Shown: piece by piece, positions 915 through 33,619 of the stretch
Layout of the letters: each line of letters begins with the position of its first letter
Position numbering within the stretch: position 1 is the stretch's first letter
NCBI RefSeq assembly: GCF_014773395.1
Contig: NZ_JACXAF010000031.1
Location: forward strand, 1 to 36,274
Origin: Neiella litorisoli
Lineage (GTDB): Bacteria > Pseudomonadota > Gammaproteobacteria > Enterobacterales > Neiellaceae
Reading direction: 5' to 3'
DNA: 36,274 bases
The notes under the pieces: generated by a model
Seen by the model: the letters and a program-made list of their open reading frames with translations, nothing else
The model's database searches: none
Told to the model about the DNA's origin: nothing
Made by a program: the position numbers and the translations under genes

Positions 915-1553
915 CTATATCAACTGCCAGCGCAACGCTTTTAACACCGCTTGGGTGCGGTCTCTGGCTTGTAACTTATCGAGCAAGTTGGAGATATGGT
1001 TTTTCACCGTTCCTTCGGCTAAGTAGATAGCGGCAGCGATTTCTTTGTTACTAAACCCAGCCGCTAAATAGCGCAATATCTGCTGCTCTTTGGCTGACAA
1101 TTCATCGGGCTGGATGGCTGGGCTGGTATCGGCCGATTCTGACTCTGGCAAGCGCTGCCGGTTTAACAATTCGGGCTCAGCCAGAAAACCACCCGCAGCA
1201 ACGGTAGCAATGGCTTTATCGAGCTTGTCCCAACTCACGTCCTTGAGTAGAAAACCGTTCACCCCAGCTTGCAAGGCGCGCAGAAATAATTGGTGCTCAT
1301 CAAACGTCGTTAGCATGAGTACCGGTGTTGTATCGCCTTGCTGGCGCATTTGCTGTACCAACTGGATGCCATCCATCACCGGCATTCGAATATCCGATAA
1401 CAACAAATCAACGGGCTGCTCAGCGATTAACTCGAGCGCTTGCTGGCCATGCTCGGCGCACCAACAAACTTGATAGTTATCATTGAGCTCAATCAGCCGA
1501 GCAATGCCGTCTCGGATCAATGCCTGATCATCGACCAGCGCAATGTTGATCAT
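915..1553 (-). CDS. NarL/DesR-type LuxR-family response regulator
   Basis: This is a 212-residue two-component response regulator. The receiver domain (about 1-120) has the acidic pair D8-D9, the phospho-acceptor D54 in LLSDIRMPVMDG, the LTTFDE motif typical of the NarL subfamily, and K104. The C-terminal LuxR-type helix-turn-helix (about 148-210) has LSAKEQQILRYLAAGFSNKEIA and GTVKNHISNLLDKL. It is the second gene of a two-gene unit: its ATG overlaps the TGA of the kinase gene in an ATGA junction, so the two are almost certainly co-translated. The likely output is control of its own operon and/or the divergent DUF2141 gene through the dyad at 2741-2788. The signal sensed is not known. Confidence 0.92.
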   Translation of the reverse strand: MINIALVDDQALIRDGIARLIELNDNYQVCWCAEHGQQALELIAEQPVDLLLSDIRMPVMDGIQLVQQMRQQGDTTPVLMLTTFDEHQLFLRALQAGVNGFLLKDVSWDKLDKAIATVAAGGFLAEPELLNRQRLPESESADTSPAIQPDELSAKEQQILRYLAAGFSNKEIAAAIYLAEGTVKNHISNLLDKLQARDRTQAVLKALRWQLI

Positions 1554-2668
1554 GCTAATGCCTCCTCTGGCAACGCGGCCAGCTCAATGGTGATGGCAAA
1601 GCCTGACGGCAACTTGTTAATCATCAGCTGACCGCCGAGCTGTTTTGCTCGCTCAGCAATCCCGTTGAGACCGTTGCCATAATGCACATTTGAGCAGCCC
1701 ACTCCGTTATCGCGGATCTGTAATTTGAATTGCGGTTGACGCACCATCTCAATGGCGATATCGGTAGCTCGGCCATGCCGAATGGCATTGCTCACCGCCT
1801 CTTGAATGCAATAGGCCAATTGCTCACTGATATCAGCAGGCAATTCTTGCTGAGCCCCGCTAAAGCCAAGGGTGATCCCTGGCGGTAAGCCGAGTTGTAA
1901 TTCGGCGACAAAGTCAGGCAATGAAAACCGCGATTGCTGGCGCATATGACGCACAACGCTTCTTGCTTGTTGGAGGGTTTCATTGACTTGAAGTTTGAGT
2001 GATTGAAACAGTTTGCTGGAGTCATCTGGCGGCTGATGGATGGCATGTTCAAGCTGCAAGCTCAATGCCGTCAAATGGTGCCCAAGGCTATCGTGCAGAT
2101 CGCGGGCAATCCGCAAGCGTTCGTTGTGCTGGCTTTGTTGAGAGAGCATTGATTGCGCGGCGCGCAATTGCAGATTGGTCGCTTCGAGTAGCTTTTGTTG
2201 CTCCTGCGCAATCAAGCGCGAGCGAGTCGACAATGCCGCAAATAGCTCAAAACTCAAAAACACCAAGTTGGTAATGACGTCTGTTTGGCTGAGGCCACTA
2301 CTCATATCAACCAAGAGTACCGCGATATTGAGAGCTGCTAAGCCATACCACCAGCGATTCAGCCCCAGAAAAGCGGGCATTTGCGCTGCACAAATCACTA
2401 AAATGACCGGCACCACCAAGGATTTGTAATCGGCATAAATCGCTATGGCGCAGAGGCACTGGAGCAATAGCGCCAAGCGCAACAACGGCATTGAATTGGC
2501 CGCAGGTCGCCACATAGTGGCAACACAAAACGCCAACGTCATCGCTCCGAATAAGCCAAACCGGAACATGGTTAAGTGGCCATTCAAGGCATCCACCCAG
2601 ATCACAACCGCATAGGTGACAAGGCCGCTCAGCGACAAAACCAAATCGTCGCGATTCAATTTATTCAT
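1550..2668 (-). CDS. DesK-like membrane sensor histidine kinase (HisKA_3)
   Basis: This is a 372-residue kinase. The first 150 residues or so are a run of short hydrophobic segments (roughly 5 membrane passes) with no sizeable periplasmic domain, as in DesK/LiaS-type kinases that sense the membrane itself. A coiled-coil linker (about 150-180) leads to the HisKA_3 dimerisation box RIARDLHDSLGHHLTALS with the phospho-accepting H192. The HATPase domain has the N box QEAVSNAIRHG, DNGVGC, and GNGLNGIAERAKQLGG. It overlaps the response regulator gene by four bases. A role in sensing membrane state or envelope stress is inferred from architecture only. Confidence 0.9.
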   Translation of the reverse strand: MNKLNRDDLVLSLSGLVTYAVVIWVDALNGHLTMFRFGLFGAMTLAFCVATMWRPAANSMPLLRLALLLQCLCAIAIYADYKSLVVPVILVICAAQMPAFLGLNRWWYGLAALNIAVLLVDMSSGLSQTDVITNLVFLSFELFAALSTRSRLIAQEQQKLLEATNLQLRAAQSMLSQQSQHNERLRIARDLHDSLGHHLTALSLQLEHAIHQPPDDSSKLFQSLKLQVNETLQQARSVVRHMRQQSRFSLPDFVAELQLGLPPGITLGFSGAQQELPADISEQLAYCIQEAVSNAIRHGRATDIAIEMVRQPQFKLQIRDNGVGCSNVHYGNGLNGIAERAKQLGGQLMINKLPSGFAITIELAALPEEALA

Positions 2669-2740
2669 GGTTTTCCAGTCAGTTATTTACGAAAAAAGCA
2701 ATCAATGACCACTCTAACCAATTGCGGCCAGCAGCGCATA

Positions 2741-2788
2741 GTGCCAAAAGTCATCTTTGTCGGGCGACCAACTCATGACTTCTGGCAC
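2741..2788. promoter_or_regulatory. 14-bp inverted repeat, candidate response-regulator operator
   Basis: GTGCCAAAAGTCAT (2741-2754) and ATGACTTCTGGCAC (2775-2788) are complementary at 13 of 14 positions, with a 20-base spacer that itself contains GTCGGGCGAC. The half-site centres are 34 bp apart, about three helical turns. The dyad lies between the divergent kinase/regulator operon and the DUF2141 gene. It is a natural target for the dimeric LuxR-type regulator encoded next door. The repeat is seen; the binding partner is inferred. Confidence 0.5.
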
Positions 2789-2874
2789 CTGTCAGCAAGC
2801 GGCCAACTTGATTGAATAGATTCCGCACTGCAATTGCTTTGCCGACAATCAATCAACTGAACAAGGACATCACC

Positions 2875-3300
2875 ATGAAACACTACGTACTGCTCGCACT
2901 CATGTCGCCACTACTGATCCCAATTGCTAATACCTGCCATGCTGGCACCTTGGATGTCACCATCGACAACAACCAACCCACTGGCCCAATGATGGTTGAA
3001 GTGTATGACAATCAAAGCAACTACCAAGACGGTAAAGACCCCATCGCGCGCTTTAAAATGCCAGCCAAAGACAAGCCGCTGCAATTTGAAATGTCCGATC
3101 TGGCAAGTGGTGACTATGCCGTTCGCATGTTTCAAGATCTCAATAGCAACGGCCAGCTCGATGCAAACTGGCTCGGTATTCCCAATGAGCCTTACGGCTT
3201 TTCCAACAATGGCGGTGCCTACGGCCCAGCGAGCTTTGACGACGCCAAAGTTGCAGTTATTGAGGGCGAAACCACCGCTATCAACATCACCCTTCGTTAG
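2875..3300 (+). CDS. DUF2141 secreted protein
   Basis: This is a 141-residue exported protein. A signal peptide (MKHYVLLALMSPLLIPIANT, cleavage probably after CHA at about residue 23) precedes a small beta-sandwich-like domain. The conserved DUF2141 pattern is clear: LASGDYAVRMFQDLNSNGQ, then LGIPNEPYGFSN and GPASFDDAKV. The acidic DLNSNGQLD stretch resembles a calcium-binding loop. I chose ATG 2875 because AAGGA lies just upstream and the signal peptide begins there; a longer frame from 2812 lacks these signs. The family function is unknown. It is divergent from the DesK/DesR-like pair and may be its target. Confidence 0.88.
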   Translation: MKHYVLLALMSPLLIPIANTCHAGTLDVTIDNNQPTGPMMVEVYDNQSNYQDGKDPIARFKMPAKDKPLQFEMSDLASGDYAVRMFQDLNSNGQLDANWLGIPNEPYGFSNNGGAYGPASFDDAKVAVIEGETTAINITLR

Positions 3301-3319
3301 GCCTGTCATGCTTTGTAAC

Positions 3320-3348
3320 AAGCCCACCGTGTTCAATCCGGTGGGCTT
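3320..3348 (+). terminator. terminator-like hairpin after the DUF2141 gene
   Basis: AAGCCCACCG (3320-3329) and CGGTGGGCTT (3339-3348) form a perfect 10-bp stem with a 9-base loop, 20 bases after the stop codon. The tail is not T-rich, so termination efficiency is uncertain. Confidence 0.6.
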
Positions 3349-3391
3349 CACTCTATAATCAACCCCAACAAAGCAGTCAGAGGTTCAATGA

Positions 3392-4153
3392 ATGCAGGTA
3401 ATTCAAGGCGGTAGTAGCGGCGCAGCTTATTTTTTCAAAGGTTTTGAGTTGATCCAAACCAAGGGGCTTCGACGGTTCGTCGCCGTACCATTGATCATCA
3501 ATCTCATTATCTTTTCGCTATTTTTTGGCTACCTCATCAGCAGCTTGTCAGACTGGTTTGTGATGCTCAATGAGTGGTTGCCAGAGTGGCTCAACTGGCT
3601 GCAATACCTGCTTTGGCCCCTCGCTCTCATCTCTATTCTGGTGCTGTTTTCATTCCTATTTGCCACGGTCGCCAACTGGTTGGCAGCGCCCTTTAACGGC
3701 TTACTCGCGGAGAAAGTTGAACTCTATCTGACCGGTAAACCGATCGACAGTGGCGGCTTTGTTGACTTGGTTAAGGATATTCCGCGGCTGTTCGCCAGAG
3801 AATTCCAAAAGCTCGGCTATTTCCTACCACGAGCACTGCTTTGTTTGTTGTTATTTCTGGTGCCACTGGCCGGACAAACTCTAGCGCCGGTTATTTGGTT
3901 TTTGTTCTCGGCGTGGATGATGGCGATTCAATATTGTGATTACCCATTCGACAACCACAAAGTGCCATTCCGCGACATGAAGCTGAAGCTCAAGTCACAG
4001 CGTAGCCAGAGTATGAGCTTCGGCATTATGGCCATGCTGTTTACCATGATCCCCATCGTCAACATGCTGGTAATGCCGGTAGCGATTTGCGGCGCTACTT
4101 CGATGTGGGTGCAAACTCAGCGCGAGCAAGTGCTCGCTAGCCGCACTCAGTAA
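3392..4153 (+). CDS. cysZ: sulfate transporter CysZ
   Basis: This is a 253-residue inner-membrane protein of the EI24/CysZ family, the same length as E. coli CysZ as I recall it. CysZ imports sulfate to feed cysteine synthesis. The N-terminus GGSSGAAYFFKGFELIQTKGLRRFV, the following long hydrophobic helices (about 25-50, 68-95, 140-180, 205-235) and FNGLLAEKVELYLTGK are characteristic. ATG 3392 is preceded by AGAGG at a suitable distance. It stands alone here; cysK, its neighbour in E. coli, is 16 kb away in this window. The downstream 230 bases belong to the nitrate operon control region. Confidence 0.92.
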   Translation: MQVIQGGSSGAAYFFKGFELIQTKGLRRFVAVPLIINLIIFSLFFGYLISSLSDWFVMLNEWLPEWLNWLQYLLWPLALISILVLFSFLFATVANWLAAPFNGLLAEKVELYLTGKPIDSGGFVDLVKDIPRLFAREFQKLGYFLPRALLCLLLFLVPLAGQTLAPVIWFLFSAWMMAIQYCDYPFDNHKVPFRDMKLKLKSQRSQSMSFGIMAMLFTMIPIVNMLVMPVAICGATSMWVQTQREQVLASRTQ

Positions 4154-4189
4154 GCAAAGAGCAGAACAAGTGCATTAAAATCACAACAA

Positions 4190-4206
4190 AGCACCAAAAG
4201 GATGCA
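4190..4206. promoter_or_regulatory. candidate NtrC-binding site 1 (nas operon)
   Basis: AGCACC-AAAAG-GATGCA matches the NtrC consensus TGCACC-N5-GGTGCA at 10 of 12 positions with correct spacing. It lies about 120 bp upstream of the sigma-54 promoter, a normal enhancer distance. Its centre is 46 bp from that of the second box. Confidence 0.5.
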
Positions 4207-4235
4207 ACAACTCAAATCCTAGCCAACGAACCAAT

Positions 4236-4252
4236 TGCACCAAATTGGTTCC
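4236..4252. promoter_or_regulatory. candidate NtrC-binding site 2 (nas operon)
   Basis: TGCACC-AAATT-GGTTCC has one perfect NtrC half-site and matches at 10 of 12 positions overall. It overlaps a separate perfect 9-bp inverted repeat, GAACCAATT (4228-4236) with AATTGGTTC (4243-4251), so another regulator could bind here instead. It lies about 70 bp upstream of the -24 element. Confidence 0.5.
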
Positions 4253-4322
4253 ACAGAAAATAACTCGTTGTTATAAATGCATTATCCAGAACCCAAAACA
4301 AGATAACTCGGTTGTTTTGATA

Positions 4323-4339
4323 TTGGTACGGCGCTTGCA
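4323..4339 (+). promoter_or_regulatory. sigma-54 (RpoN) promoter for nasC-nasA
   Basis: TTGGTACGGCGCTTGCA has the -24 GG and -12 GC dinucleotides exactly 10 bases apart. It differs from the consensus TTGGCACG-N4-TTGCA at one position. Transcription should begin near 4350, leaving a leader of about 35 bases before the nasC start. With the two upstream NtrC-like boxes this gives a complete nitrogen-limitation control region. Confidence 0.8.
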
Positions 4340-4383
4340 AAACCTCATCAAAATAGAATGATTGATGAACAGGCCCTGCTGGA

Positions 4384-5649
4384 ATGACGAGAGAGAAATT
4401 AGTAGTGATTGGTAACGGAATGGCCGGCATGAAAGCAGTCGAAGAACTGCTATCTGCCTGCCCTGAGCGTTATGAAATCACCGTATTTGGTGCCGAGCCC
4501 TACGGAAATTACAACCGCATTATGCTGTCACCAGTATTATGCGGCGAGAAAACCATTGATGAGATCATGATTAATGATCGCCAATGGTATCAGGACAATG
4601 ACATTGTTCTGCACGCCGGCCCAGACAAACAAATTACCGAAATCGACCGCCGCAGACGCAAAGTCATTAGCCGTGATGGCACCGAAGCGCGCTACGACAA
4701 ATTGCTAGTCGCCACCGGCTCCAAGCCTTTCATCATTCCCCTGCCGGGTCACCAACTCGATGGCGTTATCGCCTTTCGTGATATTTTCGACGTCAACACC
4801 ATGTTGAGCTATGCCGTTACCAGACGCCATGCGGTAGTGCTCGGCGGCGGTTTGTTGGGGCTAGAAGCGGCCAACGGGCTGAAGCAACAAGGCATGGAAG
4901 TCACCGTCGTCCACAACTGCTCAACGCTGCTTAATCGACAACTCGACGCCAATGCTGCCGAGTTGCTGCGAGCCGAGTTCGAGGCGCGCGGCATTGGCTT
5001 TATGATGGAAGCCGATACCAAAGAATTGATTGCTGATGACAGCGGCCACGTCGCCGCCGTGAAATTTGGCGATGGCACTGAACTACCTTGCGATCTGTTT
5101 GTCATGGCCGTTGGCGTCAAGCCGAATTTCGACTTAGCAAAATCAGCGGGCATCCATTGCGAGCGGGGCATTGTCGTTAATGACACCCTGCAAACCTTTG
5201 ACCCGAGTATTTATGCGGTGGGGGAATGTGTGCAACACCGCGGCATGACCTTTGGTATGGTGGCGCCGGTGTTTGAGCAGGCGAAAGTTTGCGCCAACCA
5301 TCTTAGTGGCCATGGCGTTGCTGAATACAAAACGCTGCCCAACGCGACCAAGCTAAAAGTCACCGGCATTAACCTGTTTTCAGTCGGTGATTTTAACGGT
5401 GACAGCGACTGCGATGTACTGGAATTCCACGATCCTGAATTGAACGTCTACAAACGCTTGGTGTTACGTGCCGATCGTGTTATTGGCGCAGTGCTCTATG
5501 GCGACACCCTCGATGGCAGTTGGTATCAAACCCTGATGGAATCTGAGCAAGACGTGTCAGCCATTCGCTCCGTGTTGCTGTTTGGCCAGCGCTATGCCGA
5601 CAAATTCGTCGAAGATGTCATTCCAGCAGCTCTGCAGGAGGTCGCGTAA
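4384..5649 (+). CDS. nasC: NasC-like NADH/FAD oxidoreductase subunit of assimilatory nitrate reductase
   Basis: This is a 421-residue cytoplasmic flavoprotein related to the N-terminal part of NirB and to Klebsiella NasC, which pass electrons from NADH to the nitrate reductase. FAD motif VVIGNGMAG (about 8-15), ATGSKP (110-115), NAD motif VVLGGGLLGLEAA (151-163) and YAVGEC (277-282) are intact, followed by an NADH-rubredoxin reductase-like C-terminal domain. There is no BFD-type [2Fe-2S] domain at the C-terminus, unlike some NasC/NirB proteins; that cluster is instead on NasA. The stop codon abuts the nasA start (TAA-ATG), so the two are one operon behind the sigma-54 promoter. The symbol follows Klebsiella naming; usage varies between species. 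Confidence 0.87.
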   Translation: MTREKLVVIGNGMAGMKAVEELLSACPERYEITVFGAEPYGNYNRIMLSPVLCGEKTIDEIMINDRQWYQDNDIVLHAGPDKQITEIDRRRRKVISRDGTEARYDKLLVATGSKPFIIPLPGHQLDGVIAFRDIFDVNTMLSYAVTRRHAVVLGGGLLGLEAANGLKQQGMEVTVVHNCSTLLNRQLDANAAELLRAEFEARGIGFMMEADTKELIADDSGHVAAVKFGDGTELPCDLFVMAVGVKPNFDLAKSAGIHCERGIVVNDTLQTFDPSIYAVGECVQHRGMTFGMVAPVFEQAKVCANHLSGHGVAEYKTLPNATKLKVTGINLFSVGDFNGDSDCDVLEFHDPELNVYKRLVLRADRVIGAVLYGDTLDGSWYQTLMESEQDVSAIRSVLLFGQRYADKFVEDVIPAALQEVA

Positions 5650-8355
5650 ATGTCTCAGTCATCATGCAAAACAATCAAAACAACGTGCGCCTATTGCGGC
5701 GTTGGCTGTGGTATTGAAGCCAGCGTTAACGAAACCGAGCGGCAAGTACTGATCAACGGTGATGACAATCACCCAGCCAACTTCGGCAGACTTTGCTCAA
5801 AAGGTAGCTCGCTGGGCGAAACCATTGATGTTTCTAGCCGCTTGCTGACACCTTACATTGGCCAACAGGCGACCGACTGGAATACGGCTCTGGATGCAGT
5901 CGCCAGCACCTTCTCGCAAATTATTGCCGAACATGGCCCAGATTCAGTGGCGATTTATGGCAGTGGTCAGCTGCTGACAGAAGACTACTATGTGGCGAAC
6001 AAACTGATGAAAGGCTTTATTGGTAGCGCCAATATCGATACCAATAGTCGGCTTTGTATGTCTTCAGCTGTCTCCGGTCACAAACGTGCATTCGGCACCG
6101 ACACCGTGCCCAATTGCTACGATGATTTGGAGCTCGCCGACTTAGTGGTGATCACCGGCTCGAATATGGCTTGGTGTCACCCGATTTCTTATCAGCGCAT
6201 TCGCGCTGCCAAAGCAAAAAATCCCAACATGCGGGTGGTGGTAATCGATCCAAGACGAACCGCGACCTGCGACATTGCCGATCTCCATTTACCGCTTGCC
6301 GGCGGCAGTGATGTGGTGCTGTTTAACGGCTTGCTCAACCATTTAGTCAATGGCCAGTATCTGCAACAAGAGTACATCGACAATCACACTCAGGGCTTTG
6401 CCGAAGCCGTTGCGGCCGCACAGCAAGATGCAGGCGATTTAGCCGAAGTTGCACTCAGAACGCGCCTTAGTGAGCGCGATTTGGTGACTTTCTACAACTG
6501 GTTTGCAGAAACAGACAAAGTCGTGACTGCTTACAGCCAAGGGGTCAAGCAATCATCCAGTGGCGTCGATAAGGTCAACTCGATTCTCAATTGCCATTTA
6601 GCAACTGGCCGGATTGGTAAGCCCGGCGCTGGCCCGCTGTCGATGACAGGCCAACCCAACGCCATGGGTGGCCGCGAAGTTGGCGGCTTAGCCACCACAC
6701 TTGCCGCCCATATGGAATTCAACATTGACGGCGACACCGACCGGGTCGCTCGATTCTGGAATGCCGCCAATATGGCGACCAAGCCCGGTCTGCCTGCAGT
6801 GGAGTTGTTCGAAGCAATTGCCGCGGGCAAAATCAAAGCGGTTTGGATCATGGCCACCAACCCAGTGGTGAGTTTGCCAAACGCCGATCAAGTCAAAGCC
6901 GCATTGCAGCAATGTCCTTTTGTTGTGGTCAGCGACTGTGTCGCCAACACCGACACATTAGAGTTGGCGCATATTAAACTGCCAGCGCAAGGCTGGAGCG
7001 AGAAAGACGGCATTGTGACTAATTCCGAGCGCCGCTTGTCGCATCAGCGGGCTTTGCTACCGCCTGCCGGCGAAGCCAAGCCTGATTGGTGGATTATTTC
7101 TCAGGTTGGCCAGCGCTTAGGCTTTAAAGATGCGTTTAACTACCAGCATCAGGTTGAGATCTTTCGCGAACATGCAGCGTTATCTGGTTTTGAAAACTCA
7201 TCAGAGCAACGCCTTCGTGATTTTGATATTTCGGCATTTGCCAACATTTCACAACAGCAATACGAAGACTTTGAGCCCATCCAGTGGCCGGTGAACCAGC
7301 AGTACCCCAATGGTAAAGAGCGCTTTTTTGCCGATGGCCAGTTTTACACGCCAAACCGCAAAGCCAACTTCATTGCCTTAACCGGCAGAGCGCCAGGTAA
7401 TTTGCCAGACCAAGAATATCCTCTAGTGCTCAACACGGGTCGCCTGCGCGATCAGTGGCACACCATGACCCGCAGCGCACTGGCTCCGCGTCTTAATCAG
7501 CACCGGCCAGAGCCGTTTGTTGAAGTAAATCCGCAGGATGCCGCTAAATACGGCCTGAAAGATGGTCATATTGCGCACTTGCAAAGCCGTTGGGGGCAAA
7601 TGTATGCACGTGTCAATGTCTCCGAATCACAAGTTGCTGGCGACGTATTTGTACCCATGCATTGGACCGAACAATACGCCAGCAAAGGACGCATGGGTGC
7701 CGTGGTCAACCCTGTGGTGGATCCGGTGTCGGGTCAGCCCGAAAGTAAACACACGCCCATCCGCATCGCACCATATCAGGCGGAATGGCATGGTTTTGTA
7801 CTAAGCCGCCAACCGCTGCCTGATGCCGGTATTGATTATCAGGTGAAAGTGAATTGTCAGGGCTATCTGCGCTATGAATTAGCGGGCTACGATCAGTCTT
7901 CACTGTCGATTGACTGGGTTAAGCAATGGTTGTCGCAAGTTTATCCGGCACTGAGCTGGCAGTACCTTGATGACGCCAAGTTGGGTTTATTGCGCGTCGC
8001 CGGCTATCAGGGCAATAGCCTGATGTTCGTGCTATGTATCGCCACCACGCCAGATATTCGGATGCTGCCTGAGCGTAATTTCCTCAGTTCGCTATTCGCC
8101 AAATCGCAGCTGCAGCCTGACGAGCGCCTCGCATTGCTCAGTGGCCTGCCTACGGCAGGTGCAGAGGATACCGGCGCTCAGGTTTGTGCATGCTTTAATG
8201 TCGGCGAGAAGACCATTCGCAAAGCCATCCGTGAAAACGGCCTGACGAGCTATCAGGAAGTGGGTAAATGCTGTAAAGCAGGCACCAATTGCGGCTCTTG
8301 TGTACCTGAAATCAAAACCATTCTGGCCTCCATGGTAGAGACACAGCCCGCTTAA
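5650..8355 (+). CDS. nasA: assimilatory nitrate reductase catalytic subunit NasA
   Basis: This is a 901-residue molybdopterin (bis-MGD) oxidoreductase that reduces nitrate to nitrite in the cytoplasm; no Tat signal is present. The N-terminal 4Fe-4S ligands are C13, C16, C20 and C49 (CAYCGVGC and RLCSKG). C136 in NSRLCMSS is the expected molybdenum ligand. The molydopterin dinucleotide-binding domain covers about 580-700 (NTGRLRDQWHTMTRS). A C-terminal BFD-like [2Fe-2S] domain (about 845-890) has C846-x-C848 and C881-x2-C884. This matches the Klebsiella-type NasA that accepts electrons from NasC. A GGAGG lies upstream, inside the end of nasC. Nitrite reductase and nitrate transport genes are not in the window. 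Confidence 0.95.
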   Translation: MSQSSCKTIKTTCAYCGVGCGIEASVNETERQVLINGDDNHPANFGRLCSKGSSLGETIDVSSRLLTPYIGQQATDWNTALDAVASTFSQIIAEHGPDSVAIYGSGQLLTEDYYVANKLMKGFIGSANIDTNSRLCMSSAVSGHKRAFGTDTVPNCYDDLELADLVVITGSNMAWCHPISYQRIRAAKAKNPNMRVVVIDPRRTATCDIADLHLPLAGGSDVVLFNGLLNHLVNGQYLQQEYIDNHTQGFAEAVAAAQQDAGDLAEVALRTRLSERDLVTFYNWFAETDKVVTAYSQGVKQSSSGVDKVNSILNCHLATGRIGKPGAGPLSMTGQPNAMGGREVGGLATTLAAHMEFNIDGDTDRVARFWNAANMATKPGLPAVELFEAIAAGKIKAVWIMATNPVVSLPNADQVKAALQQCPFVVVSDCVANTDTLELAHIKLPAQGWSEKDGIVTNSERRLSHQRALLPPAGEAKPDWWIISQVGQRLGFKDAFNYQHQVEIFREHAALSGFENSSEQRLRDFDISAFANISQQQYEDFEPIQWPVNQQYPNGKERFFADGQFYTPNRKANFIALTGRAPGNLPDQEYPLVLNTGRLRDQWHTMTRSALAPRLNQHRPEPFVEVNPQDAAKYGLKDGHIAHLQSRWGQMYARVNVSESQVAGDVFVPMHWTEQYASKGRMGAVVNPVVDPVSGQPESKHTPIRIAPYQAEWHGFVLSRQPLPDAGIDYQVKVNCQGYLRYELAGYDQSSLSIDWVKQWLSQVYPALSWQYLDDAKLGLLRVAGYQGNSLMFVLCIATTPDIRMLPERNFLSSLFAKSQLQPDERLALLSGLPTAGAEDTGAQVCACFNVGEKTIRKAIRENGLTSYQEVGKCCKAGTNCGSCVPEIKTILASMVETQPA

Positions 8356-8363
8356 TCAATCGC

Positions 8364-8396
8364 TGTCACATTGCGATGCGCTGTCGCAATGTGACA
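8364..8396 (+). terminator. terminator-like hairpin after nasA
   Basis: TGTCACATTGCGA (8364-8376) and TCGCAATGTGACA (8384-8396) form a perfect 13-bp stem with a 7-base loop, 8 bases after the nasA stop. The downstream TCCCTTTC is only weakly T-rich. It separates nasA from the convergent Amt fusion gene. Confidence 0.65.
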
Positions 8397-8422: not shown

Positions 8423-8446
8423 ATAGCAATCCATATAGATTGCTAT
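8423..8446 (-). terminator. hairpin at the end of the Amt-GGDEF-EAL gene
   Basis: ATAGCAATC (8423-8431) and GATTGCTAT (8438-8446) form a perfect 9-bp stem with a 6-base loop that touches the stop codon of the minus-strand gene. There is no T-run on that strand, so it may stabilise the message end rather than terminate alone. Confidence 0.45.
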
Positions 8447-11400
8447 TAGACCGCACCTTCGAGAGCCCTAGCTGCCAACTTGACCTCTTTCGCCGGTAGC
8501 GGCTTATAGAACAAGTAACCCTGATACATATTGCAACCGCGGGTTTGCAAAAACTCCAACTGCTGCTGCGTTTCAACCCCTTCGGCCACCGTAATCAAAT
8601 CTAAGTTTTGCGCCAAGCTAATGATGGTTGCGCAAATCTGGCCATCTTCGACGGTTGATGCGCATTCATCAACAAATGAGCGATCAATTTTAAGCACGTC
8701 GATAGGCAAGCTTTTCAGGTAATTCAACGAGGAATAGCCGGTCCCAAAGTCATCCACTGAGATTTTCAGCGCCAACTGTTTGAGCGCCGCCATCACTTCG
8801 ATGCAGCGTTCGATATCGGTCAACAACACCCCTTCGGTGATCTCAACCTCCAGTAATGATCCATCAATTTGATAATGCTCAAGGCGCTGTTTAACGAATT
8901 CCACCAAAGGCCCAGACACCATGTGTCGGCCTGAGATGTTGACCGACACTGGCACCAACTTTTTACCCTCGCGCTGCCAACACTGCATTTGTTGCAACAC
9001 ATCATCAATGGCCTTTTCACCGAGCTGAATAATCAGATCCGACTCTTCTGCCAACGGAATAAATTCACTGGGCGAAATCAGCCCTTCCTTTGGATGTTGC
9101 CAGCGAATCAAGGCTTCGAGGCCAACAATATCGCCATTGGCAATGACCTTGGGCTGATACACCATGTAGAACTGATCACCGCTGCTGACTGCTTTGCGCA
9201 TCTCTTGCTCGTAGTCGAAGTGACGGGCCGCAGTTTTGGCCATATCAGGCTGAAACAATTGATAATTATCGCGGCCTTTTTGTTTCGCGCTGTACATGGC
9301 TAAATCCGCATACTGCATTAACAAATCGGCACTGACGGTGTCATTCTCAGCAATGGCAATACCAACGCTAGTCGGAATATTAATCTCGCGACCTTCCAGT
9401 AGCAGCGGCTCGCGCATCACATCAAGAATGGCTTGGGCTTTATCGCAGGCGGCTCGGTCGCTGAAAGCGCCGGTGACTAGCACGACAAATTCATCGCCGC
9501 CCCAACGAGCAATAATGTCATCCGCCCGAGTCACCCGAGTTAAACGGTTGGCAACTTCACAAAGTAAGTCGTCACCAGCACGATGACCGAGGGTATCGTT
9601 AATTTTCTTAAAGCGGTCGAGATCTAAGAAAAACAGCACCACACGCTCTTGGAAATTGCTCGATTGCTCAATCGCTCGCACCATCGAATCCATCAGGTAG
9701 GTGCGGTTATACAGCCCCGTCAGCGGGTCGCTGTACGCCAGTTGTTTCAGCTTTTCTTGCAGTTTGAGCTGGCGGGTCACATCACGAATGTGCAAGGTGA
9801 ACTCGTTAGAATTACGGTCAAAGTCGGCCGCCGTTACGGTGATCTCAGCCGGAAATGAATCACCTGAGTTACGCAGCAGGGTAATCGCATTGCGCCGGTT
9901 TCGAAGCAAACCGCAAGACGATGAAAATTTATGGCGCAGGCTTTCGCGCACCGAGGTTCGATCATCAACAGTGATAAATAGTTCAATAAAATCTTTGCCT
10001 GTGACATGACTTTTTAGATAGCCAAAGGTGCGCTCGGCGGCGGGATTAAATTCGATTATTCTGCCGACTAAATCGACCGTCAAAATGGAATCCATTGAAG
10101 AGTCAAGGATCGCGCTTTTACGCTTTTCGCTGGAACGAAAACGATCAATAGCATCGTCTCGTTTGCCGATCTCCTCACTCACTCGGGCAATCACTTCGTT
10201 GTATTGCTTGGCAATTTGCCCCACTTCGGTAAATGGCTCGACCGGTACCGGCTCGGAGAACCTGCCTTCGCGCTGTTGCTTATGCATGGAGCCCAGCAAA
10301 TCAATCAGTTCCGTTGATGCCCGATGCTCGGAAATGTTCATGCCCTGCAATTCATCTTCAGCACTAACGCGCAGTGGCAGCTTACGATTCAACAGCCACA
10401 ACATGACGTAGCTGACTGTAAAGCTGTAACAGCAGATCGCCGCCACCCCAAGTAGCTGCACCCACAGCTGACCGAAGCCACTTAATCCGGTTGCCAATAT
10501 TGCCGGATCACCAAACACAGCAACGGCTATGGTGCCCCAAATGCCACAAAACAGGTGGGCCGGCACCACTCCCAACGCATCATCAATACGGAGCGATTCA
10601 ATCCATTGGGTACCAACACAAACAATCGCCCCTGAGCACATGCCAATCATCATGGCTTCAACCGGCACCACCGCATGGCAGCTTGCCGTCACGCCCACCA
10701 AGCCACCGATGACGCCGTTCATAATGGCACCGACATCAACGTAGCGATGGCGCAAATAATGGCACCCCGCGGCAATAATTCCGCCCCAAACCGCCGCCAC
10801 GCATGTATTGAGCATAATCAACGGCACTTGTTCGTTGAGCGCTAAGGTACTGCCGCCATTAAAGCCAAACCAGCCCAGCCAGATCAGCAGCGTGCCGAGT
10901 ACCGACATGGGTAAATTACTGCCCTGCAAAAAGCTGCGATTATCAGAAAAGCGGCCAATGCGCGGGCCAATGATCATGATTGCAGCCAACGCCACACAGC
11001 CTCCCACCGCATGGACCACGGCGGCACCAGCAAAATCGACAAATCCCAACGCTTCTAACCAGCCAGCATTACCCGACTGATAGATCGACGCCCAGCTCCA
11101 GTGGCCAGGGATCGGATAAATAATGGCCGACAGCATCGCCGCTGCGGCGAGATAACCGACGAAACTCATCCGCTCAGCAACGGCGCCGGACATTAAGGTA
11201 GCGGCAGTGCCACAAAACATCATTTGAAAAATAAAGAAGCTGGTCTGCTCTGCGCTCTGGCTGCCACCAAAGACAAAATCACTGAAACCGAATAAACCGC
11301 CCTGACTGGCGCCAAACATCAAGGCAAAGCCAAACAGCCAAAAAATAATCGCTGCGACGATAAAATCGGAGATGTTTTTAGCGGCGACATTAATGCTGTT

Positions 11401-11493
11401 TTTACTGCGGATCTTGCCGGTTTCAAGACACAGAAAACCAGCCTGCATGAAAAACACCAAAACTGACGCGATGAGAAGCCACGAATATTGCAT
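8446..11493 (-). CDS. ammonium transporter fused to PAS, GGDEF and EAL domains
   Basis: This is a 1015-residue membrane protein. Residues 1 to about 373 form an Amt/Mep/Rh channel (about 11 helices). It keeps the pore twin histidines H161 (DFAGAAVVHAVGG) and H313 (VVPAHLFCGIWG), D153 and the GHWSW segment. A cytoplasmic HAMP-like linker (about 380-450) and a PAS domain (about 460-572) lead to a GGDEF domain (RWGGDEF, 665-669) with an upstream I-site RxxD (R656-D659), then a complete EAL domain (EAL 793-795, SVNISG, DDFGTGYSSL 914-923, KIDRSF, VAEGVET). All catalytic motifs look intact, so it may both make and degrade c-di-GMP. ATG 11493 follows GGGAGG; an upstream in-frame TTG (11508) lacks a suitable site. 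It converges on nasA and has its own sigma-54-like promoter. Transport versus sensing is not decided by sequence. Confidence 0.93.
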   Translation of the reverse strand: MQYSWLLIASVLVFFMQAGFLCLETGKIRSKNSINVAAKNISDFIVAAIIFWLFGFALMFGASQGGLFGFSDFVFGGSQSAEQTSFFIFQMMFCGTAATLMSGAVAERMSFVGYLAAAAMLSAIIYPIPGHWSWASIYQSGNAGWLEALGFVDFAGAAVVHAVGGCVALAAIMIIGPRIGRFSDNRSFLQGSNLPMSVLGTLLIWLGWFGFNGGSTLALNEQVPLIMLNTCVAAVWGGIIAAGCHYLRHRYVDVGAIMNGVIGGLVGVTASCHAVVPVEAMMIGMCSGAIVCVGTQWIESLRIDDALGVVPAHLFCGIWGTIAVAVFGDPAILATGLSGFGQLWVQLLGVAAICCYSFTVSYVMLWLLNRKLPLRVSAEDELQGMNISEHRASTELIDLLGSMHKQQREGRFSEPVPVEPFTEVGQIAKQYNEVIARVSEEIGKRDDAIDRFRSSEKRKSAILDSSMDSILTVDLVGRIIEFNPAAERTFGYLKSHVTGKDFIELFITVDDRTSVRESLRHKFSSSCGLLRNRRNAITLLRNSGDSFPAEITVTAADFDRNSNEFTLHIRDVTRQLKLQEKLKQLAYSDPLTGLYNRTYLMDSMVRAIEQSSNFQERVVLFFLDLDRFKKINDTLGHRAGDDLLCEVANRLTRVTRADDIIARWGGDEFVVLVTGAFSDRAACDKAQAILDVMREPLLLEGREINIPTSVGIAIAENDTVSADLLMQYADLAMYSAKQKGRDNYQLFQPDMAKTAARHFDYEQEMRKAVSSGDQFYMVYQPKVIANGDIVGLEALIRWQHPKEGLISPSEFIPLAEESDLIIQLGEKAIDDVLQQMQCWQREGKKLVPVSVNISGRHMVSGPLVEFVKQRLEHYQIDGSLLEVEITEGVLLTDIERCIEVMAALKQLALKISVDDFGTGYSSLNYLKSLPIDVLKIDRSFVDECASTVEDGQICATIISLAQNLDLITVAEGVETQQQLEFLQTRGCNMYQGYLFYKPLPAKEVKLAARALEGAV

Positions 11494-11600
11494 CAGAATC
11501 CCTCCCAACTACATGGTTCGTCATTACTAGGAAATGTGGAAAATAAAGCCATAAGAACAGAGGAAACTGAGTGCTTTCATTGAGTTAAGCACTAAACAAC

Positions 11601-11615
11601 GCAAGTTTTAAGCCA
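11601..11615 (-). promoter_or_regulatory. candidate sigma-54 promoter of the Amt fusion gene
   Basis: On the minus strand TGGCTTAAAACTTGC has GG and GC exactly 10 bases apart and keeps TGGC and TTGC, losing only the AC of the consensus TGGCAC-N5-TTGC. Transcription would start near 11590, giving a leader of about 95 bases. It is weaker than the nas promoter but in a position and biological context that fit. Confidence 0.5.
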
Positions 11616-11693
11616 CTGTTTGAATCAGTCGCCAAGCGGTTGAAATAATGAACAATAGTGTGATTTTTAAGGCTATAAATCCGCTTTGGTGCG

Positions 11694-11710
11694 CGCATCA
11701 TAACGGTGCA
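11694..11710. promoter_or_regulatory. candidate NtrC-binding site upstream of the Amt fusion gene
   Basis: CGCATC-ATAAC-GGTGCA matches the NtrC consensus at 10 of 12 positions with the right spacing. It lies about 80 bp upstream of the proposed -24 element, similar to the nas arrangement. Its right half overlaps the hairpin at 11705-11735, so the match could be incidental. Confidence 0.35.
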
Positions 11711-11735
11711 ACGCACTGGCATTGCGCGTTGCACC
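11705..11735 (-). terminator. hairpin after the TPR lipoprotein gene
   Basis: GGTGCAACGC (11705-11714) and GCGTTGCACC (11726-11735) form a 10-bp perfect stem with an 11-base loop, about 45 bases beyond the stop of the minus-strand RND operon. No T-run follows, so its role as a terminator is likely but not certain. Confidence 0.5.
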
Positions 11736-11779
11736 ATGAGTGAGTTATTCGTATTTGGAAGCTCGCAGTAAAGAGCTTG

Positions 11780-24936: not shown

Positions 24937-26856
24937 CTACGACGAATGACGCGCTTTGAACTCGACCAGCGTGCCACCTTCACAAAGCTGACAAACTCGA
25001 CGCGGCGCACCAAGCTCGTCGAGTTCAACCACACCAATACCGGCAGCATTGAGTAATCGGCGGCCTTTGTCTTGCTGCTCTGGCACATAAGGCGTGATCA
25101 CCATATCACGCCGTTTAGTCAGCCAATTCAGTGGAGACTTCGGCGAATAAATCCAGCGATTGAGCCGATCTAAGGTGTTCAGCAAGCGATCCGGAAACTC
25201 ATTTTTAATACCGCTGCTGGTGATTTGCCAGACATCCGAAGCATGCTCTTGGTGACGCAGCCGGACACCGAACATGAATGAGTAATGAACATCGCCGGAC
25301 AGAATGACAAATCGCTCGGGCGTCTGCTGATGCTTAAACAGATCCAGCAATGCTCGCGCCGCACCGGGGTGCGCCATCCAACTCTCGGCATCCACCATCA
25401 GAGGCTTGCCAAAGAAAGTGAACACATGCTGAATTGCCTCAATCAACTTAACTCCAAAAACTGGCGCCGGCGATACCAGCACTGCCGCTGGCAATTGCTC
25501 AATCTGGCGCTGAAGCTGGGTGATTGATTCGAAGTCCATCAAGCCAGAGGGTTTGTCAAAACTACGCTCCGAACGCCAACGCTGAGTCCGAGTATCGAGC
25601 ACAACTAAAGGCGGATTCAGTGGCCACTGATAGCTCCAATCAGACTTATCAAATAACTGCTGAAGGCAATCATCGTGGGCTTGCTGACCGACATCGCTCA
25701 GTGCTTGCTGAATGATTTGTTGCACTGAACTCGGCGCTGAGGTCAAGCGGTTGCCCTGCCCTTGGCACAAATAATAGCCAAGCAATGCATTGCCAAGAAT
25801 TCGTTTTGACAGTGAATTTGAATAGGCAATTTGCTCCCAACGAGCGCTCAAATTCCAGTCATCGGTAACATCGTGATCATCAAAAATCATCGCCGTCGGC
25901 AAATGCGCCAACAGGCGCCGGACAGCTGGCAGACCGTCCGCAAATTTATTAATGATCGCTTGTTGTTGCGCGTAAATTTGCTGCTCTTTGGGGCTGAGTT
26001 TGGCGGATTGCTCGACGCTCAATTGAGTGCTGTGTTGATGCCATAGCGTGGGCGACCACACCATCAGATACATGGTGAGCACTTCGGCCAAGCTAATCAG
26101 GTGATTCTCGGCACTGTCAGAGGTAAAAATAGGCTTTTTGACACCGCGAAATAATTTATCGACGACAGCTTGCCCAGAGTGCGTCAACGGCAATAAACCA
26201 CTGCGATGATAATAACTAGGCTGCTCCCGATGTAACGTCTGAGCGGTGGGCACTTGGCATTGCGGCAAGGCTTCGTCGTCAAAGCCAAGACGGGCAATTG
26301 CTTGATGAATCGCTCGGAGCATGGGCGCTGCGACATCATCGCAATAGATTTGATCGCCGCTGAGAATAAGTAGCTGCGGCCATTGTTCAGCCTTGTTTTG
26401 AGCCAACAAGCAATCCGCTTCGACCAGCCCATCCACCGAGTCATGATGGGGTTTTCGACAGGAACCGTGGAGTAACTTGGTTAACGAGGGCTGGAGTTGA
26501 AATCCCAATGAGGTGCGGTTGGGATAGCACAGCGAGGCATCTCCCCAATCGGCAAAACCAAGCCAGTCATGCCGCCCTTGGCGCTGCAGCAGCAATTCGT
26601 AGTTAACCCAACCGGATTCTGGTAACGCCGGCTCTAAGGGTAATTGGATTTGATGGATCCAAACATGTTGAGCAGCGCGGTAGCTGACCAGCTGTTCGCT
26701 CAGCTCAAAGCGCATTTCATCGCAAGACTCTGGCTGTAATTGCAGCTGGCAACGAACCGGCTCAGATGTCACCAGCCAGCAGCCGAAATGATTCGCTGAG
26801 ACATGGCGGAGGATTGGGCCAGCTAGCACTAGCGGCAGAGGCTGCTCTTCGCTCAT
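24937..26856 (-). CDS. PhoD-like metallophosphatase
   Basis: This is a 639-residue protein. An N-terminal beta-rich domain (about 5-125) precedes a metallophosphoesterase core with LILSGDQIYCDD (about 163-174), MIFDDHDVTDDWN (about 323-335) and VILSGDVHYSF (about 517-527), the metal-ligand motifs of the PhoD-like superfamily. There is no signal peptide, unlike secreted PhoD alkaline phosphatases, so a cytoplasmic phosphodiesterase or phosphatase role is more likely. I chose ATG 26856 rather than the preceding TTG; GGGG lies 8 bases upstream. It is convergent with the dual-specificity phosphatase gene. The substrate is unknown. Confidence 0.85.
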   Translation of the reverse strand: MSEEQPLPLVLAGPILRHVSANHFGCWLVTSEPVRCQLQLQPESCDEMRFELSEQLVSYRAAQHVWIHQIQLPLEPALPESGWVNYELLLQRQGRHDWLGFADWGDASLCYPNRTSLGFQLQPSLTKLLHGSCRKPHHDSVDGLVEADCLLAQNKAEQWPQLLILSGDQIYCDDVAAPMLRAIHQAIARLGFDDEALPQCQVPTAQTLHREQPSYYHRSGLLPLTHSGQAVVDKLFRGVKKPIFTSDSAENHLISLAEVLTMYLMVWSPTLWHQHSTQLSVEQSAKLSPKEQQIYAQQQAIINKFADGLPAVRRLLAHLPTAMIFDDHDVTDDWNLSARWEQIAYSNSLSKRILGNALLGYYLCQGQGNRLTSAPSSVQQIIQQALSDVGQQAHDDCLQQLFDKSDWSYQWPLNPPLVVLDTRTQRWRSERSFDKPSGLMDFESITQLQRQIEQLPAAVLVSPAPVFGVKLIEAIQHVFTFFGKPLMVDAESWMAHPGAARALLDLFKHQQTPERFVILSGDVHYSFMFGVRLRHQEHASDVWQITSSGIKNEFPDRLLNTLDRLNRWIYSPKSPLNWLTKRRDMVITPYVPEQQDKGRRLLNAAGIGVVELDELGAPRRVCQLCEGGTLVEFKARHSS

Positions 26857-26865
26857 CAATACCCC

Positions 26866-33201: not shown

Positions 33202-33619
33202 TATCTTCTCCGAGGACGGAATTAATCGCATGTGAAATAAGCGAGGAAGAAGCTAATGGGGAAAAATGACAAAAAGACTTCATCTCTGTGAATGAATTAT
33301 TTCCCAGCAATTACAGAAATGTTGCAACCCTTGTGTGACTTGGGCTGAGATAATGTCGGGCGGTGTTCAAGTAATTCACGACGATCACAAAAATTTCATA
33401 GAAATTCGGCAAAAGCGGATTATCGCCACCACCATAGTTTAATTTTCATACAGTTAAGCCAAGGTCAAAAAACAGCCTCCCCATGATTCCGATCAAACAA
33501 ACTAAAAACAAACACCTATCAGACAAATAGATTTAATCGATTTTATTTATCAAAACACTCAGGCCATACTTAGCTCCGTTGATTCGAAACAGACAAATTA
33601 CTCATTACGGAGATTGATT
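33202..33619. other. divergent control region, lipoprotein versus peroxiredoxin gene
   Basis: These 418 bases hold the promoters of two divergent units and no gene. The right part contains an OxyR-type site (33505-33541) and a possible -10 CATACT (33565-33570) for the peroxiredoxin gene. The left part is AT-rich, but I saw no convincing Pho box, Fur box or sigma-54 element for the lipoprotein gene. Confidence 0.65.
33505..33541 (+). promoter_or_regulatory. OxyR-type operator upstream of the peroxiredoxin-glutaredoxin gene
   Basis: The OxyR consensus has four ATAG/CTAT elements at about 10-bp steps. Here CTAT (33516-33519) is followed by exactly 7 bases and ATAG (33527-33530). The right half ATAGATTTAATCGAT matches 9 of 10 conserved positions, and the left half 7 of 10. 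The site ends where a weak -35 would begin, 17 bases before CATACT, as expected for an OxyR-activated promoter. Confidence 0.65.

Follow-up and report, generated by a model that had tools for sequence, protein, structure and literature searches.

Whether ammonium transporter (Amt) proteins can serve as ammonium sensors, and not as mere carriers, is an old question. The single biochemical case of Amt sensing that we found described, Ks-Amt5 of the anammox bacterium Ca. Kuenenia stuttgartiensis, is a solved Amt-kinase fusion (PDB 6eu6) that responds to ammonium in vitro, and the preliminary description of the DNA studied here was right that Amt proteins joined to signalling domains such as histidine kinases are known. 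According to the Ks-Amt5 report, kinase output alters with NH4+ in vitro, NH4+ is bound without efficient translocation, and residues F27, Y30 and F34 are proposed to close the pore, with F34 said to obstruct the pathway (PMC5764959). The same paper cites Tremblay and Hallenbeck 2009 for Amts combined with other domains (PMC5764959), and Amt-output architectures of this kind may already have been listed there.

Three further PDB entries (8qj3, 8qj4 and 8qpf) hold a chain of 644-661 aa named 'Ammonium transporter', with an Amt followed by a GGDEF domain. We take this chain to be Sd-Amt1 of Shewanella denitrificans. As an Amt-GGDEF chain and the Ks-Amt5 structure both exist, the joining of an Amt to an output domain is an established kind of architecture. 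No description of an Amt-GGDEF or Amt-GGDEF-EAL protein was found in the searched part of the PMC literature, which leaves out most subscription journals and bioRxiv, and a term search of the main text of a 2022 census of c-di-GMP stimuli (PMC8846402) returned none of 'ammonium', 'ammonia', 'nitrogen' or 'Amt'. Here we analyse an Amt fusion encoded in a 36,274-nucleotide stretch of DNA (the window) from Neiella litorisoli. Fusion of an Amt to a c-di-GMP domain is a known kind; the PAS-GGDEF-EAL output is a new form of it.

Results and discussion

The fusion gene and its family

The frame reported in the preliminary description is present as given, and we add that it lies on the minus strand (Table 1). 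That an Amt is joined to PAS, GGDEF and EAL domains in one protein is borne out by the intact frame and by a Pfam search, in which all four domains scored above the curated cut-offs. A longer frame, opened by TTG and reaching 11508, is also free of stops, but is probably not the gene since a Shine-Dalgarno-like sequence precedes the ATG at 11493. The inverted repeat beyond the stop codon is a possible terminator shared by the NasA-like and fusion genes. A sigma-54 promoter for the fusion gene was discarded, as the motif occurs 32 times in the window (31.4 expected) and nowhere in the upstream gap (11494-11779); an Rfam scan gave 0 matches at gathering scores.

Table 1. Features of the fusion locus, in window positions with residues of the fusion protein; catalytic and I-site roles of the GGDEF and EAL residues are presumed.
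Feature	Position	Strand	Basis
Amt-HAMP-like-PAS-GGDEF-EAL fusion gene	8446..11493	-	single intact frame, ATG start, 1015 aa, stop codon included; orthologues exist
Amt module, residues 1-393	10315..11493	-	Pfam PF00909; marked residues mapped by alignment, invariant in 23/23
HAMP-like linker, residues ~395-439	10177..10311	-	hhalign profile-profile comparison with HAMPs; TEVG at the HAMP DExG place
PAS domain, residues 458-573	9775..10122	-	Pfam PAS_9 468-573 and PAS 458-519
GGDEF domain, residues 586-742	9268..9738	-	Pfam E 2.4e-44; GGDEF 665-669, I-site R656/D659
EAL domain, residues 763-998	8500..9207	-	Pfam E 3.4e-70; E793, N852, E884, D914, D915, K935, E971, Q991
Shine-Dalgarno-like GGGAGG	11501..11506	-	7 nt ahead of fusion-gene ATG; direct reading
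13-bp perfect inverted repeat, 7-nt loop	8364..8396 (arms 8364-8376/8384-8396)		between converging NasA and fusion genes; direct reading
NasA-like gene	5650..8355	+	ends 90 bp from fusion gene; convergent

The fusion is not a chance artefact: frames of 1013-1044 aa with Amt, GGDEF and EAL motifs occur in 17 of the 394 sampled genomes of the order, that of the window included, and form a conserved family in Neiella, Psychromonas, Marinomonas, Paraglaciecola, Reinekea and others. Relatives were collected with an Amt plus linker profile (E<=1e-120), which favours the fused-Amt clade, and were compared with AmtB-class proteins (29 among the best PF00909 scorers, two Amts of the same genome and two PDB chains) in a tree of 103 rows and 4 PDB chains from which duplicates and Amt stretches shorter than 300 residues had been removed. 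The 22 rows of the window family form a single clade (SH-aLRT 95, starred), nested in a clade of 54 rows (53 fused Amts and one unfused Amt) that also holds Ks-Amt5 (88, not starred). As sister of the window family the tree places the PDB Amt-GGDEF chain (89, not starred); this chain and Ks-Amt5 are long branches whose placement the tree tool flagged as unsure. Outputs across the larger clade include MCP, histidine-kinase, GGDEF and GGDEF-EAL types, assigned by Pfam for the window protein and a further 9 and 5 proteins, and by motif and length for the remainder; two loci, L079 and L105, were classed as 'other'.

The Amt module

The Ammonium_transp profile matches residues 5-393 over nearly its whole length (positions 2-397 of 399; E 3e-113, 379 bits against a cut-off of 23.2). 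The two pore histidines claimed earlier are confirmed, H161 and H313 aligning with H171 and H326 of Ks-Amt5. Proper alignment left no pore position wanting, as the gate (F93/F211) and filter (W134/S215) are also in place, and all of these residues are unchanged in the 23 full-length orthologues.

The resemblance to Ks-Amt5 takes in residues of its intramembrane two-ion site (Q24, E31, N47, D50, T51, T109 and T112) and a lengthened loop 5. Six of the seven positions are kept, as Q17, E24, N40, D43, T99 and S102, and are invariant in 23/23 orthologues; T112 is replaced by serine and T51 corresponds to F44. The six residues and the longer loop are equally found in 21/21 unfused relatives, the QENDT Amts, and are for that reason features of the clade and no proof of sensing; we have dropped the cation site as a discriminating sensor signature.

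The positions of the helix-1 residues F27, Y30 and F34 in Ks-Amt5 are occupied by F20, L23 and K27. As only one of the three proposed pore-closing residues is matched, transport by the Neiella Amt may persist, and a transceptor, a protein that still conducts ammonium, with c-di-GMP output following flux instead of binding-site occupancy, is an alternative that we think unlikely but take seriously. It is in keeping with the complete pore, gate and filter in every orthologue. Against it, lysine or arginine stands in 21 of 22 window-family rows at the place of F34, a residue described as pathway-obstructing in PMC5764959, where Ks-Amt5, of the same clade, is likewise described as binding NH4+ without efficient translocation; the fused loci tested also have no glnK-like frame.

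Loci with and without glnK

By pattern match, no glnK-like frame lies in the window or at the fused loci tested (L130-L146 with short flanks only), an arrangement that also fits Ks-Amt5, an Amt with a cytoplasmic signalling output and no glnK nearby. Of 31 other unfused Amts, 24 had such a frame close by and the match was blank at 7, versus none of the 21 unfused QENDT Amts. Two other Amt loci of the Neiella genome, L002 and L004, each have one.

This pattern would also suit signalling in reverse, in which GTP or c-di-GMP, once bound by the GGDEF-EAL pair, would let that pair gate the Amt channel in cis in place of GlnK, the more so as the linker appears to exit the Amt at the point on which GlnK-type control would be exerted. 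We judge this very improbable: the same type of linker precedes MCP and kinase outputs, known outward signallers, in sister proteins, and gating would need no intact EAL catalytic residues, yet these are intact in all 23 orthologues.

A HAMP-like linker

The preliminary description proposed a HAMP-like linker after the Amt, and profile-profile comparison agrees, although Pfam HAMP (PF00672) gave no match in the Neiella linker even at E<=10. When the linkers of 51 fused Amts were aligned by hhalign with HAMPs of the same genome, the probability was 95.7 across the linker; with the window-family linkers alone it was 63.9. The HAMP set comprised 22 of 26 matches, four partial ones (L182, L188, L192 and L199) being omitted. 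Controls were far lower: reversed HAMPs gave 2.6, none of 10 HAMP alignments with shuffled columns exceeded 1.1, and none of 10 other 90-residue stretches cut from the window family exceeded 7.6. A small HAMP model of our own, run with hmmsearch, gave up to 21 bits for MCP-type linkers; the window linker scored 0.6 bits and its family no more than 4.4, values within the range of shuffled controls. The TEVG of the linker stands at what we take to be the position of the DExG motif of HAMPs. The linker type is retained across the MCP, kinase and GGDEF outputs of fused Amts; Ks-Amt5 differs here, being described as lacking a HAMP module ahead of its histidine-kinase output (PMC5764959).

Among proteins with this linker, the PDB 8qj3 chain matches residues 4-436 of the Neiella fusion with its Amt and linker (the match as a whole scores 446 bits), and a GGDEF domain comes after (580-754); as deposited the chain has neither PAS nor EAL, unlike the fusion, and its GGDEF is distant (47 bits) and reads GGEEF. 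A second fused Amt in the Neiella genome, the Amt-MCP at locus L001 (G000:C17), has an MCPsignal output. Its linker is the best relative scanned with Pfam HAMP (24.3 bits against a cut-off of 25), it too has no glnK-like frame, and its cation site is the same except for alanine in place of serine at the sixth position. It differs in its chemotaxis output and in falling in a separate MCP-rich subclade (99, starred).

PAS, GGDEF and EAL domains

The solved PAS domain nearest to that of the fusion is 5luv (E 2e-5), named 'putative PAS/PAC sensor protein'; FixL (E 4e-5) and DosP are also among the nearest. An oxygen input through a haem-PAS was rejected, since V515 occupies the position of what is presumably the haem histidine of FixL. 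The PAS domain could nevertheless bind a ligand of its own and dominate the output.

The catalytic motifs of both c-di-GMP domains, reported as intact, hold up well: the GGDEF motif and the EAL catalytic set do not vary in 23/23 full-length orthologues, and the further GGDEF metal and GTP residues checked are intact, position 741 alone varying, in 2/23. The I-site claim stands for the Neiella copy, which has the RxxD motif, and does not extend to the family, where the arginine is kept in 12/23 orthologues and lost in 11/23. The GGDEF-EAL pair aligns with PDB 4rnh, a 'Motility regulator' (residues 583-1004, 390 bits) that we take to be MorA; 4rnh and DosP differ in having other inputs and no Amt. 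Similar in layout are Amt-PASx2/x3-GGDEF-EAL proteins of 1137-1295 aa (L130, L136, L138 and L139 by Pfam, others by motif only), which share the order of an Amt followed by PAS-GGDEF-EAL but carry two or three PAS stretches and belong to separate subclades.

The conserved GGDEF residues, the I-site of the Neiella copy and the presence of GGDEF alone in the nearest solved relative (the 8qj3 group) would agree with an enzyme that is mainly a diguanylate cyclase, like its Amt-GGDEF relatives, with the EAL domain as a brake. We regard this as rather improbable, because the I-site arginine is gone in 11/23 orthologues and the EAL residues never are, and because the two best-scoring NCBIfam models describe phosphodiesterases, although these matches lie far under their cut-offs and partly reflect shared domain order.

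The nitrate assimilation neighbourhood

The tail-to-tail arrangement with nitrate reductase was described correctly: nas genes flank the fusion in the window and at two more Neiella loci, and the fusion converges on NasA in three Neiella genomes. As a contextual clue the arrangement fares poorly, for a nas gene adjoined the fusion at 0/20 loci of other genera (~5 kb searched, or to the contig end), and a functional link through nas context was rejected outside Neiella. On whether the fusion tracks nas genes across genomes, a NasA-like gene is present in 15/17 fusion carriers versus 133/377 other genomes (Fisher p 1.6e-5, uncorrected for relatedness). A nitrate-assimilation accessory working with the adjoining nas genes would fit that co-occurrence and the convergent pairs, but we find it scarcely credible: besides the missing linkage, no further neighbour is common to more than 6 of the 20 non-Neiella loci, the carriers G092 and G171 have no NasA-like gene at E<=1e-180, and convergent genes have no promoter in common. 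As a conserved link, the fusion-nas pairing is largely refuted.

Proposed function

We propose, with a probability of roughly 0.7, that the Neiella fusion is a membrane ammonium receptor controlling c-di-GMP turnover, with net output probably biased to breakdown. Judged from sequence, this sensor reading is partly supported by the complete Amt, the complete c-di-GMP module and the shared clade with Ks-Amt5. The Amt module, which would derive from the clade without glnK partner genes and not from assimilatory AmtB, would bind external ammonium and would itself probably be non-transporting; the induced change would travel via the last Amt helix and the HAMP-like linker to the PAS domain and on to the GGDEF-EAL pair. 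The GGDEF domain may act as a cyclase, as a GTP-sensing activator, or as both. A tilt towards breakdown is probable since the EAL catalytic set never varies, although the GGDEF motif is just as conserved.

Conclusions

The residues and the loop that have been connected with sensing in Ks-Amt5 also occur in unfused Amts and are not sensor markers by themselves, which qualifies an earlier assumption. More tentatively, and at a little short of even odds, the glnK-less Amt clade may be a general bacterial ammonium-receptor module that acquired a HAMP-like linker on a single occasion and was then shuffled among MCP, histidine-kinase, cyclase and cyclase-phosphodiesterase outputs, so that the two receptors of one Neiella cell would steer swimming and c-di-GMP by the same cue. 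Amt proteins are trimeric, and HAMP, PAS, GGDEF and EAL domains are usually dimeric; in such a module an obligate trimer would drive dimeric outputs. If the proposed function is correct, this family would represent a one-protein pathway from ammonium to the lifestyle signal c-di-GMP, for which the sister Amt-MCP protein of the same cell would serve as an internal comparison, and would offer a concrete system for the control of dimeric enzymes by a trimeric receptor.

Domain anatomy of the fusion

The preliminary description placed an ammonium transporter (Amt) and PAS, GGDEF and EAL domains in one gene, and this observation was right, as all four exceed their own Pfam cut-offs (table below). 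The same genome has 59 GGDEF matches in Pfam, 58 above the cut-off, so the fusion is one c-di-GMP protein among many.

Features of the fusion gene, its surroundings and related loci (window positions unless stated)
Feature	Position	Strand	Basis or remark
Fusion gene	8446-11493	minus	ATG start, 1015 residues encoded
Shine-Dalgarno-like GGGAGG	7 nt 5' of fusion ATG	minus	read from sequence
Ammonium_transp	fusion residues 5-393		Pfam
PAS	fusion residues 458-573		Pfam
GGDEF	fusion residues 586-742		Pfam
EAL	fusion residues 763-998		Pfam
Fusion residue 27	11413-11415	minus	place of Ks-Amt5 F34 / Af-Amt1 M30
Perfect 13-bp inverted repeat	8364-8396		read from sequence; between convergent NasA and fusion genes; possibly a two-way terminator
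NasA-like reductase with C-terminal BFD [2Fe-2S] domain, beside separate 421-aa NirB-N-terminal-like partner	915-8355
HisKA_3 kinase and LuxR-type response regulator	915-2668
640- and 942-aa frames flanking TonB-dependent receptor	24937-26859, 30403-33231	minus	no Pfam match at E<=1e-10
L001, Amt-HAMP-like-MCP protein	G000:C17:50219-51631 and onward	minus	~759 aa; own genome
L012, unfused Amt	L012:1483-2769 (G034:C202)	minus	inside fused clade

The segment joining Amt to PAS, previously described as HAMP-like, is fairly called so, but "a HAMP domain" would overstate the case. Pfam HAMP gave no match in it. In a profile-profile comparison of 51 fused-Amt linkers with a HAMP profile built from 22 of the genome's own 26 HAMP matches, fusion residues ~395-439 aligned to HAMP positions 9-52 with a probability of 95.7 (E-values refer to one comparison). 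Linkers of the window family alone (the fusion and its orthologues) gave 63.9. Controls gave 2.6 for reversed HAMPs, at most 1.1 for ten column-shuffled HAMP alignments and at most 7.6 for ten other 90-residue slices of the window family. When the same HAMPs were used in a sequence-to-profile search, the window linker did not stand out (0.6 bits).

Conserved residues

Residue numbers of Ks-Amt5, the Amt-histidine kinase of Ca. Kuenenia stuttgartiensis, were taken from the excerpted text of PMC5764959 and transferred through a pairwise alignment and a 107-row Amt alignment. Both alignments confirm the proposed pore histidines H161 and H313, and gate F93/F211 and filter W134/S215 are all there. 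Ks-Amt5 Q24, E31, N47, D50, T109 and T112 correspond to Q17, E24, N40, D43, T99 and S102, with F44 at the T51 position. The pore set and these six cation-site residues are unchanging in 23/23 full-length orthologues (window counted), as are the GGDEF motif and EAL catalytic set, whose residues we presume to have their assigned functional roles. The earlier claim of intact c-di-GMP motifs holds for these sets but not for the I-site arginine R656, kept in 12 of the 23.

Distribution and phylogeny

Scanning genome contigs with the linker-PAS alignment returned nine named loci (Neiella marina, Neiella holothuriorum, an Alteromonadaceae bacterium, an uncultured Paraglaciecola, two Psychromonas, two Marinomonas and Reinekea marinisedimentorum), from organisms that we take to be mostly marine Gammaproteobacteria; the closest relatives of the fusion are Neiella, at 92 and 80% identity. 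Counting the own genome each time, Amt-linker matches occur in 24/394 genomes of the order sample (E<=1e-120), 26/369 of the class sample and 22/398 of the phylum sample. Seventeen of the 24 have a frame of 1013-1044 aa bearing GGDEF and EAL motifs; the remainder are a 1137-aa Amt-PAS-GGDEF-EAL (G347), two Amt-MCPs (G004, G262) and four short Amts. The wider samples contribute an Amt-GGDEF (L070), an Amt-HK-REC (L071), further Amt-MCPs, and Amts in which two or three PAS stretches precede GGDEF-EAL. Outputs were assigned by Pfam for 14 full-length relatives and from motifs for the rest. In genome G1023 the Amt-PAS-PAS frame L105 has 741 aa, whereas frames of 1138 and 1153 aa with a GGDEF motif occur in two genomes sharing its genus code; either the output of L105 would be truncated or its gene interrupted.

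In a quick IQ-TREE phylogeny of 107 Amt domains, with SH-aLRT as sole support, 32 AmtB-type rows split from 75 others (100, starred). One clade (88) holds 53 fused proteins, including Ks-Amt5 and the PDB 8qj3 chain, and one unfused Amt, L012. The 22 window-family rows form a single clade (95, starred) with the PDB Amt-GGDEF chain as sister (89), and the MCP fusions and L070 group separately (99, starred). The own-genome L004 Amt, linked to glnK, branches basally among the non-AmtB rows. The tree tool flagged Ks-Amt5, the 8qj3 chain, L004, L079, L092, L130, L145 and Af-Amt1 as long branches of unsure placement. By fewest changes the GGDEF-EAL label needs at least 5, so this output possibly arose more than once. 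The stop-to-stop frame of L012 overlaps an upstream receiver-like frame and a long, sensor-like downstream frame that, by eye, appears to carry a HAMP; L012 could be such a fused sensor in split form.

The full Q/E/N/D/T site is present in 22/22 window-family rows and 13/15 other GGDEF-EAL rows, the misses being L144 (a fragment) and L136 (N for D, A for T). It is also complete in MCP (8/8), HK (4/4), GGDEF (2/2) and "other" (2/2) rows and in 21/21 of the unfused Amts grouped as QENDT by their glutamine at this site, vs 0/33 AmtB-class rows. The loop-5 stretch has 18 residues in 22/22 window-family rows, 18-22 in other non-AmtB rows and 15 in 32/33 AmtB-class rows (20 in the exception). The site and long loop 5, tied to sensing in Ks-Amt5, also occur in unfused QENDT Amts and therefore mark the clade rather than the fusion. 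At position 27 the window family has K in 14 rows, R in 7 and Q in 1, and this basic residue (21/22) is nearly private to it; among other non-AmtB rows only one HK row has K.

Genomic context

A glnK sequence pattern, sought ~1.5 kb each side of unfused Amts (less at contig ends), found glnK-like frames at 24/31 other unfused loci vs 0/21 unfused QENDT loci. These QENDT Amts (e.g. L065-L067, L082-L092, L109-L112) share the Ks-Amt5 cation-site residues and long loop 5. The pattern gave no hit across the window or at the fused loci tested, with flanks of ~1 kb or less for L130-L146 and ~5 kb, some contig-cut, for the nine named and 13-kb loci. Two own-genome Amts adjoin glnK (L002, L004), and the others are the fusion and the Amt-MCP L001, a candidate ammonium chemoreceptor; Amt-MCP frames also occur in G002, G004, G262, G512, G514, G571 and G892 (Pfam or motif).

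Adjacency to nitrate reductase, advanced earlier as a functional argument, fails: the fusion has NasA and a NirB-N-terminal-like reductase as neighbours in the window and in two other Neiella genomes, and at 0/20 loci of other genera (blastp E<=1e-20; some contig-cut), where no other neighbour is common to more than 6. NasA-like genes (E<=1e-180) occur in 148/394 genomes, 15/17 fusion carriers vs 133/377 others (Fisher p 1.6e-5), weak evidence without correction for relatedness because 7 of the 17 carriers share one genus code (g15).

Relation to known systems and proposed mechanism

The anatomy, conservation and kinship of the fusion were shown by the sequence analysis. Against the PDB, the full protein matched the 8qpf/8qj3 Amt-GGDEF chain best, over Amt plus linker (4-436) and again over GGDEF, followed among Amts by Ks-Amt5 (6eu6). 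According to the excerpted text of PMC5764959, NH4+ modulates the kinase output of Ks-Amt5, which binds ammonium without efficient translocation and lacks a HAMP. In Azospirillum the PII protein GlnZ is connected to c-di-GMP, another nitrogen-to-c-di-GMP route with different parts (PMC7646526, in excerpt). The searched text of a 2023 review of prokaryotic Amts (PMC10433425) contains neither "GGDEF" nor "diguanylate", and that of a 2022 c-di-GMP sensory census (PMC8846402) neither "ammonium" nor "Amt".

Most likely, the Amt module would act as an ammonium receptor, the HAMP-like linker as a converter, and PAS-GGDEF-EAL as an output with probable PDE bias; its ligand, signal direction, transport and physiology are what we infer. 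HAMP, PAS, GGDEF and EAL domains are usually dimers. Amt proteins are trimers (PMC5764959, in excerpt). This difference is a symmetry problem for the proposed mechanism. Judged from sequence, control of c-di-GMP by ammonium through this fusion, as the preliminary description suggested, is plausible.
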